Positions 50,750 through 53,285 of a DNA stretch of 64,000 nt are shown in pieces (positions within the stretch are counted from its first letter, which is position 1; every line of letters starts with the position of its first letter). The DNA lies in contig NZ_LR027842.1 in assembly GCF_900607225.1 (NCBI RefSeq), positions 1,948,030 through 2,012,029 on the forward strand. Reading direction: 5' to 3'. The stretch is from [Pseudopropionibacterium] massiliense (GTDB lineage: Bacteria > Actinomycetota > Actinomycetes > Propionibacteriales > Propionibacteriaceae). Under the pieces are notes generated by a model. That model had not been told where the DNA came from. It saw only the letters and a list, made by a program, of their open reading frames with translations, and did no database searches. A program made the translations under genes and the position numbers.

Positions 50750-51157
50750 TCACGTTGCCTCTGGATCATAGGGGGCTGTCAGGAGAGCAGGCGTTGATGT
50801 GCCCGCATCACCCACCGGGTCGTTCTTCGCTGCTGCAATGGTCGTCGCTTCCGCGGCGGCGGCCTTCGCGGTGCTGCCCGCTGTGGAGAGCTCGCGTCTG
50901 GCCTCCTCGATGGCCGCGATCTCCTGGCGCATGTGTTTGGCGACGAATTTCTTCGGGTTGAGATCCTCGATCTTGAGGTCGGAGTATTCGGGACCGAGTT
51001 CTTCGCGCAACTGTGTCTGGGCGTTGTTCGCGATGTTCCTGACCGCCACGAACACCCGGGCTGCCTTGCGGGCGAACAGGGGGAGTTTCTCGGGACCGAA
51101 CATGACGACGCCGAGTACCAGAAGAAGGATCAGCTCGGAAGCGTCGATGTTGAACAC
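50750..51157 (-). CDS. tatB: Sec-independent protein translocase TatB
   Basis: The 135-aa protein has an N-terminal membrane helix (residues ~8-22, LILLLVLGVVMFGPEKLP, the TatA/B signature), an amphipathic helix, and a ~70-residue Ala-rich variable tail. The MFNIDASELI opening and length fit TatB rather than TatA. It lies downstream of the sigma/anti-sigma pair, as in Mycobacterium. Confidence 0.9.
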   Translation of the reverse strand: MFNIDASELILLLVLGVVMFGPEKLPLFARKAARVFVAVRNIANNAQTQLREELGPEYSDLKIEDLNPKKFVAKHMRQEIAAIEEARRELSTAGSTAKAAAAEATTIAAAKNDPVGDAGTSTPALLTAPYDPEAT

Positions 51158-51184: not shown

Positions 51185-52597
51185 TCAGCCAATCCCGACC
51201 AGTCGTCCCAGGCCACTTCCCACGCGTTCGATCAGGCCGAACTCGTTCTTCCGCATCTGTGGCAGGATCCTGCACGCATCCGCCATCAGAGTTCGCGGGC
51301 CGTTGGTCGCGACGGAGACCACGCCTTCGCCCACCTGCCAGACGGCCACTTGGGGAAGTCCCGGCGAGTCGTCAGTGACCCGGTTTCCACCCGCCAGCAC
51401 ACCCGGGTTCCATGAGACGCTCAGGGTGCGGACGCCGTCGGAATAGACCAGCCGCTGGTATGATTTCTCCCCTTCACCAGAGCTGGCATGGGCCACCAGG
51501 GGAAGCCCTCCCAGTTCCAGCGGACACTCCGGCAGGCCCACGCACCACCCAGAGGTGCTGGTGCTGGAGACGGATTCCATCGGGTAGGGCTGGGTGGAAT
51601 CCGTGGCCAGCTGTGCCGTCCCGATGTTGACGCTGACGAATCCGAAGACCAGTGTCGGGCGCCCCATCGTGTTGTAGCGCTCCACCCACAACGGAAGCCC
51701 CGTTTCATCGTCGAGCCACCAGCGCGCAACGAGATACCCGTCGCCATGCGCCTCGACCACGGAAGCGCTGCGTCCAGCGATCTCGTCCGAACTCTGATAG
51801 GTGTAGAACTGCCACCCGGTACCGGCAAGCGATGAGCAGCACCCCATCGTTGGAACGAACCACGAGAGGAAGCGCTCCCCGGTCGCATCGAGAACCGTCA
51901 GGCTGGCTCCCTCCCCTGCAACGACATCGACCTCCACGTCATTCGACCGGTGGGCGCCGTCGCCGTCCATGAGCCAGACTCTCTGCCGCCCGGAGTAGGT
52001 GATGCTCTGGCCATTGCTGCCGAGGCGGGTCATCGCGTTGCTCTCGTCGATCGGAACGGCCTGACCGAGATCGATGGAACGGGGAGTGAGCTGCGCGGCC
52101 GCGCCGGGACGAGCTCCTCGCTCACGTGCCCACTGCACGGCCCCGACGCCCTGGCCGACGCTGATCGTGGTCAGGGCCAAGGAGTACTGCTCCCGCGCCG
52201 CCCTGATCGGATCCCCCACGACCGCGGGCTCCTTTGCCAGGGCCAGGGAAAGCATCATCAACGTCGCGAGCGCGAGGGTTGCGGCCACACCTCCCCGGAT
52301 CAGCCGCCCACCGATGCTGCGGCGCCGTGCGCCATCCTCGGTGACCAAGTAAAGGGGCTGATCGCACTCATTTCCTGCGATGCCCTGAAGTCGTTCGGCC
52401 AGGGAGTCAGGTAGGGGGGTGGCCGCCTGGCAGGAACTCAGCCTGGAGCGTACCCGCCGAAGTTCCTCGACAACGGAAGCACAGCACGAACAACGGATCA
52501 GATGCTCACTGACCTGATTGACGCGACGTTCGGGCAGCGTCCTGTCGACGAACCCCGAGAGGTCGTCCTCGTAGCGGCGGCAGTCGTTTCCCCGCAC
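51185..52597 (-). CDS. rseA: Membrane anti-sigma factor with fused RseB-like domain
   Basis: The 470-aa protein has three parts. Residues ~1-60 are a zinc anti-sigma domain with H32-x3-C36-x2-C39. Residues ~100-121 are a membrane helix. The remaining ~340 extracytoplasmic residues contain ITYSGRQRVWLMDGDG and YLVARWWLDDETGLPLWVE, patterns of the MucB/RseB lipoprotein-sensor fold, with paired cysteines (GCCSS, GWCVGLPEC). Mycobacterial RseA is ~150 aa and lacks this part. It should hold the sigma factor encoded immediately upstream. A GTG start; AGGAG is very close. Confidence 0.85.
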   Translation of the reverse strand: MRGNDCRRYEDDLSGFVDRTLPERRVNQVSEHLIRCSCCASVVEELRRVRSRLSSCQAATPLPDSLAERLQGIAGNECDQPLYLVTEDGARRRSIGGRLIRGGVAATLALATLMMLSLALAKEPAVVGDPIRAAREQYSLALTTISVGQGVGAVQWARERGARPGAAAQLTPRSIDLGQAVPIDESNAMTRLGSNGQSITYSGRQRVWLMDGDGAHRSNDVEVDVVAGEGASLTVLDATGERFLSWFVPTMGCCSSLAGTGWQFYTYQSSDEIAGRSASVVEAHGDGYLVARWWLDDETGLPLWVERYNTMGRPTLVFGFVSVNIGTAQLATDSTQPYPMESVSSTSTSGWCVGLPECPLELGGLPLVAHASSGEGEKSYQRLVYSDGVRTLSVSWNPGVLAGGNRVTDDSPGLPQVAVWQVGEGVVSVATNGPRTLMADACRILPQMRKNEFGLIERVGSGLGRLVGIG

Positions 52598-52600
52598 CTC

Positions 52601-53188
52601 CTATGACACCCCGAGGTATCGTGCATGGTCCTCGTTCGGTGCGCGGTGGGCGAGCGCATCGCGCAACTGGGCGCGCCCACGGGCGATCCGGCTGCGCACG
52701 GTGCCGAGCTTGACTCCCAGCACCCGCGAGATCTCCTCGTAGCTCATTCCCTCGATGTCGCAAAGCACCACGGCGACGCGCTGCTCGGGTTTCAGGGCCG
52801 CCAGGGCATTCGCCACATCGGCGTCCAGGGCACCATCGGTGTGAAGTTCCTCGGGGCTGCGGTCCTGCCCCCAGACGTGTTCCGGCGCAGAACTCAGTGC
52901 GTCCATGCGGATCCGCTGCCTACGTCGCGCGGAGTCCAGGAACAGATTGGTGGTGATGCGATGCAACCAACCCTCGAGAGTGCCGGGCTGGAAATTGTGG
53001 ATCGACTTGAACACCCGGACGAACACGTCCTGGGTGAGGTCCTCGGCATCGTGGCGATTGCCGGTGAGCCGGTAGGCCAGGCGATAGACCTGCGCCGAGT
53101 GGTCCCGGACGAGTTCCGCCCATGTGGGCGCAGCCCAATCCGACTCATTCGGCCTCGCCTTGTTGCGGAACACGCCTCGCCTCTCCAT
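52601..53188 (-). CDS. sigE: ECF sigma factor, SigE-like
   Basis: The 195-aa sigma factor has region 2 ([26 protein letters not shown]) and region 4 ([27 protein letters not shown]). Synteny with Mycobacterium (methyltransferase, sigE, rseA, tatB, mrp) supports SigE, the envelope-stress factor. I start at the ATG at 53188; a GTG at 53173 with GGAGAGG upstream is a real alternative. It is followed after three bases by the anti-sigma gene and preceded by an ECF-type promoter, suggesting positive autoregulation. Confidence 0.9.
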
Positions 53189-53257: not shown

Positions 53258-53285
53258 CAACGCACGACGACGAGGCTTTGTTCCC
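53258..53285 (-). promoter_or_regulatory. ECF-type promoter of the sigE operon
   Basis: On the minus strand GGGAAC, 18 bases, then GTTG match the GGAAY-N16-18-GTT pattern of ECF (SigE/SigH/SigR) promoters. It lies ~70 bp upstream of the sigE start, so the factor may transcribe its own gene. Confidence 0.6.

Follow-up and report, generated by a model that had tools for sequence, protein, structure and literature searches.

A single-chain RseA-RseB fusion encoded next to sigE in [Pseudopropionibacterium] massiliense and its relatives

Gene content of the locus

The window analyzed here is a 64,000-nucleotide stretch of the [Pseudopropionibacterium] massiliense genome (contig NZ_LR027842.1), in which an intact open reading frame without internal stop, as read from the ORF and its translation, follows the stop of the sigma factor gene sigE after a gap of 3 bp. 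The features of the locus are as follows; membrane helices were taken from hydropathy and gene starts from similarity throughout, while the sigE start at this locus was picked from alignments.

51185..52597, minus strand: fused anti-sigma gene rseA::rseB, 470 aa, GTG start
52349..52597, minus strand: cytoplasmic zinc anti-sigma domain, residues 1-83 (Pfam, profiles, alignment)
52481-52504, minus strand: H32-x3-C36-x2-C39 of the zinc domain (alignment)
52235..52291, minus strand: membrane helix, residues 103-121 (hydropathy only)
52037..52234, minus strand: extracytoplasmic linker, residues 122-187, at the position that the RseA tail occupies in split relatives
51563..52036, minus strand: RseB/MucB N-terminal domain (LolA-like in MucB), about residues 188-345 (Pfam and profiles, boundaries approximate)
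51200..51562, minus strand: RseB/MucB C-terminal domain, about residues 346-466, containing C352 and C358 (profiles and alignment, boundaries approximate)
52601..53188, minus strand: sigE, ECF sigma factor (NCBIfam NF007229 SigE, 301 bits against a cut-off of 265)
50750..51157, minus strand: tatB, the next gene downstream of rseA::rseB
53259..53284, minus strand: promoter-like site of ECF type (GGAAC-N17-CGTT), 71 bp ahead of the ATG of sigE

Beyond tatB lies a convergent Mrp-like gene. The site upstream of sigE conforms to GGAAC-N17-CGTT, which we take to be the ECF-type promoter consensus; GGAAC/CGTT sites number 5 in the window against 1.57 expected. The site is conserved, as GGAAC-N16-18-CGTT is found at most 350 nt upstream of the SigE domain in 29/31 loci of the window genus (0.15 expected), and a like site occurs at 3/6 fused loci of other genera, 8/11 loci of families f2 and f4, 42/48 loci of the class and 27/40 loci that have no RseB. 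With this conservation upstream of sigE, the block is probably autoregulated. In the organism's own genome the pattern with spacers of 16-17 is present 87 times versus 33 for a reversed control, and these 87 sites offer a starting point for the SigE regulon.

The zinc anti-sigma domain

The N-terminal part of the protein has the hallmarks of an RseA-type zinc anti-sigma factor: an H-x3-C-x2-C motif with an upstream ligand, a gene adjoining that of an ECF sigma factor, and one membrane helix, the only hydrophobic helix seen by hydropathy (residues 103-121). In an alignment of 31 genus rows and 7 rows from other genera, which omits locus L004 owing to a frame change, H32, C36 and C39 are invariant (31/31 and 7/7), and Cys6, at the upstream ligand position, is kept in 29/31 and 7/7 rows, respectively. 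Pfam zf-HC2 scores 17.9 bits on the window protein, under the cut-off of 22.2, and exceeds it in the fused relatives L063 (32.4 bits) and L030 (23.4 bits). The protein thus resembles RseA/MucA in being a zinc anti-sigma factor with a single membrane helix whose gene adjoins sigE, but differs in that its extracytoplasmic part runs on into RseB within the same chain.

The extracytoplasmic RseB/MucB module

Pfam MucB_RseB (PF03888) matches residues 265-331 of the window protein with 13.8 bits (E 0.043), under its cut-off of 22.3. Among fused relatives L063 is above the cut-off (37.8 bits) and L030 falls just short of it (22.1), and the split relatives L071 (39.3 bits) and L074 (33.6 bits) are both above; at E 0.1 or lower, 11/19 fused rows are matched, the best at 1.2e-9. 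The RseB C-terminal domain family PF17188 reaches 24.8 bits in split L074, under a cut-off of 30.1, and is found in one of 19 fused rows (E 0.031). MucB profile alignments extend through the C-terminal domain, although PF17188 itself stays under its cut-off.

A single-sequence search of PDB sequences with the window protein returned only an unrelated match (E 3.4), and the genus-only profile A4 found no RseB there, so intermediate families were added to the profiles. The fused-only profile A7 (19 rows) then matched MucB (6jau/6in9/6in8) with E 2.0e-7 to 2.2e-7 over positions 119-321 of 352, the next PDB match having an E of 0.64, and the mixed profile A6 (16 rows, fused and unfused relatives) matched MucB with E 1.8e-15 to 3.4e-15 over positions 63-334 of 365, spanning both domains; E. 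coli RseB was matched weakly by A6 (E 0.19). In profile-profile comparison with four proteobacterial RseB sequences, A6 scored 96% (E 2.3e-9), A7 78% (1.7e-5) and genus-only A4 25% (7.9e-4), with 0.8% for an HtrA control. It could be argued that this part is an unrelated beta-rich domain which resembles RseB in short motifs alone, as the lone window sequence falls under the Pfam cut-off and neither it nor the genus-only profile retrieves RseB from the PDB; this reading is largely contradicted by the A6 and A7 matches, since the broader profiles return MucB as the sole significant PDB matches and the split orthologues exceed the Pfam cut-off and adjoin rseA, and it is very improbable. As judged from sequence, the extracytoplasmic part is a homologue of MucB/RseB, for which a LolA-like half-barrel with a lipid-binding cavity is predicted through that homology.

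Like RseB/MucB, the proteobacterial sigma-E/AlgU regulator (PDB 2p4b, 3m4w, 6in8, 6jau), this part has two domains, with sequence likeness over both, and its gene neighbors are an ECF sigma factor and the membrane anti-sigma factor of the latter. RseB/MucB is a separate exported protein, as are the split orthologues described below; in the window protein, by contrast, the module is fused behind the membrane helix of the anti-sigma factor and forms no protein of its own, and as the window family shares one frame with the anti-sigma domain it is classed as an RseA-RseB fusion rather than as RseB. The window lineage is not known to have LPS. An RseB-like extracellular domain in a monoderm is also known from SsdC (YdcC) of Bacillus subtilis, a protein that differs in affecting spore shape, and the term anti-sigma does not occur in the paper describing it (PMC7769602). 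Second PF03888 proteins away from the sigE locus are seen in f2/f4 genomes (e.g., G071:C1:1269161, G068:C1:1173501 and G080:C1:8496840); these are open frames of ~370-500 aa and may be RseB or LolA-like paralogues.

Distribution of the fusion

The fused protein is matched in 39/39 genomes of the window genus (own genome included, in a sample of 96 genomes), and the fusion is therefore not a chance event. One unbroken match covering at least residues 8-447 is found in 37 of the 39; in G037 and G007, the latter 60% complete, the match is in pieces. At the G037 locus (L004), which lies in a one-contig genome, the frame of the fused gene changes at about residue 377 and the C-terminal domain continues in another frame, reflecting either a genuine loss or an artefact of sequencing. 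In further genomes of the family 8/18 match, and the remaining 10 also have no SigE match at 1e-35. Seven of the eight matching genomes were read at the locus (G039 was left out), and in 7/7 the zinc domain and RseB share a single open frame. A scan of the collection gave 10 named loci, which belong to Arachnia, to Tessaracoccus and to three bins with less precise names.

In family f2, the two parts (anti-sigma and RseB) give two matches at one locus in 14/16 genomes, and in the other two, G069 (L058) and G091 (L055), profiles place the zinc domain beside RseB in a different open stretch. Read gene by gene, the f2/f4 loci run sigE, rseA, rseB, htrA, tatB, with an rseA of about 200 aa and one helix, an rseB of about 350-420 aa with a hydrophobic N-terminus and, at L071 and L074, an htrA product of trypsin-like and PDZ parts; the exception is L068 (f4; genome G059), which has no rseB. 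The two halves being adjacent separate genes in related families, the window gene is a gene fusion. The first-pass annotation had proposed one 470 aa chain of zinc anti-sigma domain, one membrane helix and MucB/RseB homologue, and this is borne out by the intact frame, by the retrieval of MucB with profiles and by the adjacent genes of related families; its suggestion to look for the same fusion elsewhere is answered by the matches in all 39 genus genomes and by the full fusions at 7/7 loci from other genera of the family.

Over the class, profile A6 is positive in 73/296 genomes at E 1e-6, and loci were inspected in 72 of the 73 (G136 was left out). In 60 of these 72, rseA and rseB lie in separate reading stretches, rseB after rseA; 2 are full fusions (G000 and G056), both in the window's family; 7 join the anti-sigma domain in frame to RseB's C-terminal domain alone; and 3 are at contig ends, without a zinc domain. 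The split order is sigE-rseA-rseB, usually then htrA-tatB, with htrA downstream in 55/60. At L114, L120, L161 and L170, which are without htrA, the stretches are short or cut off by the contig end, and at L124 rseB is followed directly by tatB. A draw of 149 genomes from the phylum yielded 14 matches. Twelve of these come from outside the class, and among the twelve a sigE-like gene is upstream in 12/12, the zinc domain is in a stretch apart from RseB in 11/12 (none was detected at L225) and htrA is present in 5/12. Since split operons extend through class and phylum, the split operon is probably the ancestral state.

RseB had first been presented as proteobacterial; this needs to be revised, as it is also present in many actinobacterial sigE operons. 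The gene order is rpoE-rseA-rseB-rseC in E. coli and algU-mucA-mucB-mucC-mucD in Pseudomonas, where mucD encodes an HtrA. A search of open-licence papers found none on an RseA-RseB fusion or on RseB of actinobacterial sigE operons in the titles and abstract starts among the matches listed. The genome surveys of class and phylum suggest that RseB is an overlooked part of the sigE cluster in many actinobacteria.

A tree was built from 61 RseB domains that remained after thinning a set of 85; a branch with support 100/100 sets the 14 fused rows apart as a single clade, which is most simply explained by one fusion event. A plasmid search with the window protein or with split RseB gave no match.

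Several loci depart from both arrangements. Anti-sigma factors with the RseB C-terminal domain alone behind the helix are encoded at L177, L179, L180, L081 and L086 (f3/g21), L181 (f33) and L182 (f47); weaker cases are L201 and L218 (f6), with E 2.3e-7 and 1.2e-4 in searches with the C-terminal-domain profile and 1.2e-4 and 0.0062 for the best single stretch. At L198, L213 (f36) and L215, the last a second sigE-like gene of G320, no zinc anti-sigma domain was found in the stretch around the sigE-like gene.

The RseA tail motif and the linker

The tails of split RseA proteins have a common consensus, VvPPvxxFtvEHAxttgglPfxDPa, and its occurrence follows that of RseB. With scores computed leaving the family out, tails from RseB-positive loci (n=71, 15 families) have a median of 36.2 bits and a minimum of 5.0, with 71/71 at 5 bits or more, whereas tails from RseB-negative loci (n=36, 13 families) have a median of 0.35 bits, with 33/36 below 5. 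The three RseB-negative tails at 5 bits or more are L068 (33.2), L194 (5.5) and L196 (5.4), so that the two sets just overlap. The RseB-negative loci were hand-picked, a few per family, among listed SigE places without an RseB match, plus 7 others, and the count leaves out L201 and L218 (RseB C-terminal-like tails), L216 (contig end) and L198, L213, L215 and L217 (no zinc domain); absence of RseB was judged by profile at the locus and by genome scans scoring the best 6 candidates per genome (all 69 in G059). The same division is seen within family f20, where 17 RseB-positive tails score 15.1-35.1 bits versus -1.5 to 3.1 for 6 RseB-negative tails. L068 (G059) is an observation apart, holding the full motif at 33.2 bits with no RseB found at the locus or in the genome, which may reflect a recent loss or another partner.

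As the SigE-only tree, with 3 supported pairs (2 agree, 0 oppose, 1 shows no difference), is too weak for a test of joint loss, a SigE+HtrA+TatB tree of 69 loci was used; of its 5 supported independent pairs 4 agree, none opposes and 1 shows no difference (p 0.125), so that joint loss of motif and RseB is suggestive and not significant. The pattern suggests that the tail motif is an RseB-docking helix. In the proteobacterial systems helix I of MucA/RseA is bound by MucB/RseB mainly via the C-terminal domain (PMC7400510), and the tail motif may be the counterpart of that helix.

Among C-terminal-only fusions of f3/g21 it is recognizable in 4/5, at 7.4 to 12.2 bits with 0/300 shuffles as high, and the other scores are 2.5 bits for L180 (24/300 shuffles as high), 5.8 for L182 (2/300) and 0.9 for L181 (101/300); L201 and L218 have no tail motif. 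Of the seven full fusions from other genera only L061 has a clear motif (13.3 bits, 0/300 shuffles as high); it is marginal in L062 (3/300), L064 (4/300) and L065 (16/300) and absent in L063, L066 and L067. In the linker of the window genus, which has its own conservation within the genus, the split-type motif is undetectable in the 13 rows tested (best row, 20/300 shuffles as high). An origin of the fused linker from the former RseA tail was considered, and is supported for L061 and not for these 13 rows; with a comparison of split tails and fused linkers by hhalign also not significant (P 0.13), such an origin is not claimed for the window protein.

Extracytoplasmic cysteines

The window protein has five extracytoplasmic cysteines (253, 254, 352, 358 and 442), for which a response to redox had initially been proposed. 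Such a role is possible, yet only C352 and C358 are found genus-wide (31/31 rows), while C253 and C254 are each kept in 14/31 and C442 in 10/31. C352 lies within a 5-residue insertion missing from the 7 other genera aligned, so that a redox role would not be ancestral and would be a genus-level addition; the second cysteine, at the C358 position, is present in 6/7 of them and lacking in L065. Release controlled by a C352/C358 disulfide in the RseB C-terminal domain would fit the conservation of the pair in the genus and the redox-sensitive mechanism cited for MucB, where the disulfide C90-C198 is at other positions (PMC7400510). With C352 lacking in seven genera and its partner in L065, such a switch cannot be the common mechanism, and a structural disulfide would account for the pair equally well; the redox switch is accordingly a distinctly improbable explanation of how the protein works.

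Proteases and the proposed mechanism

The window genus no longer has htrA at this locus: the gene is found at 0/43 genus loci within the stretch examined around each (some genomes counted twice), and tatB directly follows the fused gene in the loci listed. The link to HtrA is thereby weakened in this genus. At the fused loci of other genera htrA is downstream in 6/7, the seventh ending with its contig. Elsewhere in the organism's own genome, a protein with a hydrophobic helix (L106) matches the HtrA profile, with its trypsin-like and PDZ parts, over 15-325 of 328, and one M50 protease is encoded.

The reading preferred here, to which we assign a probability of about 0.68, is that of a single-chain RseA-RseB in which the zinc domain holds SigE and the whole RseB module shields the juxtamembrane segment in cis. 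In the ancestor, the RseB/MucB module would have been a separate exported protein whose gene came right after rseA. In the fused protein the N-terminal zinc domain would retain SigE, the ECF sigma factor, in the cytoplasm, and the RseB module would dock onto the juxtamembrane segment of RseA within the same chain and hide it from a membrane-anchored HtrA site-1 protease; once the cavity is filled by an envelope lipid, a lipoprotein or a damaged product, this segment would be exposed and cut, and the M50 site-2 protease together with Clp would complete the degradation, freeing SigE. A lipid-type ligand is proposed from the homology, as the source on MucB describes it as shielding MucA from the HtrA-type protease AlgW, with the C-terminal domain as the primary MucA-binding part, and describes lipids in the MucB cavity as releasing MucA (PMC7400510). 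By homology to this shielding, the single chain is expected to shield itself, and tethering would fix the ratio of shield to RseA at 1:1.

The module could instead be a cis ligand sensor and no protease shield, acting through a change in conformation or clustering, or through a kinase and Clp-dependent removal from the cytoplasmic side, without site-1 cleavage. The absence of htrA from the stretches examined at 43 genus loci and the undetectable split-type motif in 13 genus rows would agree with this, as would M. tuberculosis, where a review describes sigE followed by rseA-htrA-tatB, inactivation of RseA by PknB and ClpC1P2, with ClpC1P2 removing it after phosphorylation by PknB, and a shared operon whose sense is termed difficult to understand (PMC10027907). 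Set against it are the htrA genes downstream in 55/60 split class loci and 6/7 fused loci of other genera, a tail motif that tracks RseB as docking would predict, and the retention in the own genome of an HtrA with a hydrophobic helix and of an M50 protease; a sensor without shielding is thus an unlikely explanation, if a more plausible one than the redox switch.

The mycobacterial RseA has a similar gene neighborhood (sigE, rseA-htrA-tatB) and differs in that RseB does not occur by name in the same review (0 occurrences), which describes the PknB/ClpC1P2 removal (PMC10027907). It differs also in that htrA is in the mycobacterial operon and absent from the window-genus locus. An ancestral RseB that was lost in mycobacteria is a candidate reason for the rseA-htrA-tatB operon.

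Implications for a proposed actinobacterial envelope surveillance system

In a broader proposal, whose odds we consider about even, actinobacteria would ancestrally run a monoderm DegS/RseA/RseB surveillance system from one operon, sigE-rseA-rseB-htrA-tatB, with a non-LPS ligand and with RseB docked on the RseA tail helix. RseB would then have disappeared from several lineages, the mycobacterial one perhaps among them, and in some it would have been cut down to its RseA-binding C-terminal domain and joined to RseA; in the Arachnia/Tessaracoccus family it would have been fused whole, with tethering making the docking helix dispensable and turning a two-protein sensor into a one-chain receptor. 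RseB between rseA and htrA would represent a protease-gated anti-sigma module as in Gram-negatives, a gate which may be lost in mycobacteria. As a one-chain receptor, the fusion would allow sensor, shield and inhibitor to be studied together, and it raises the question of what the RseB ligand may be in bacteria without LPS.
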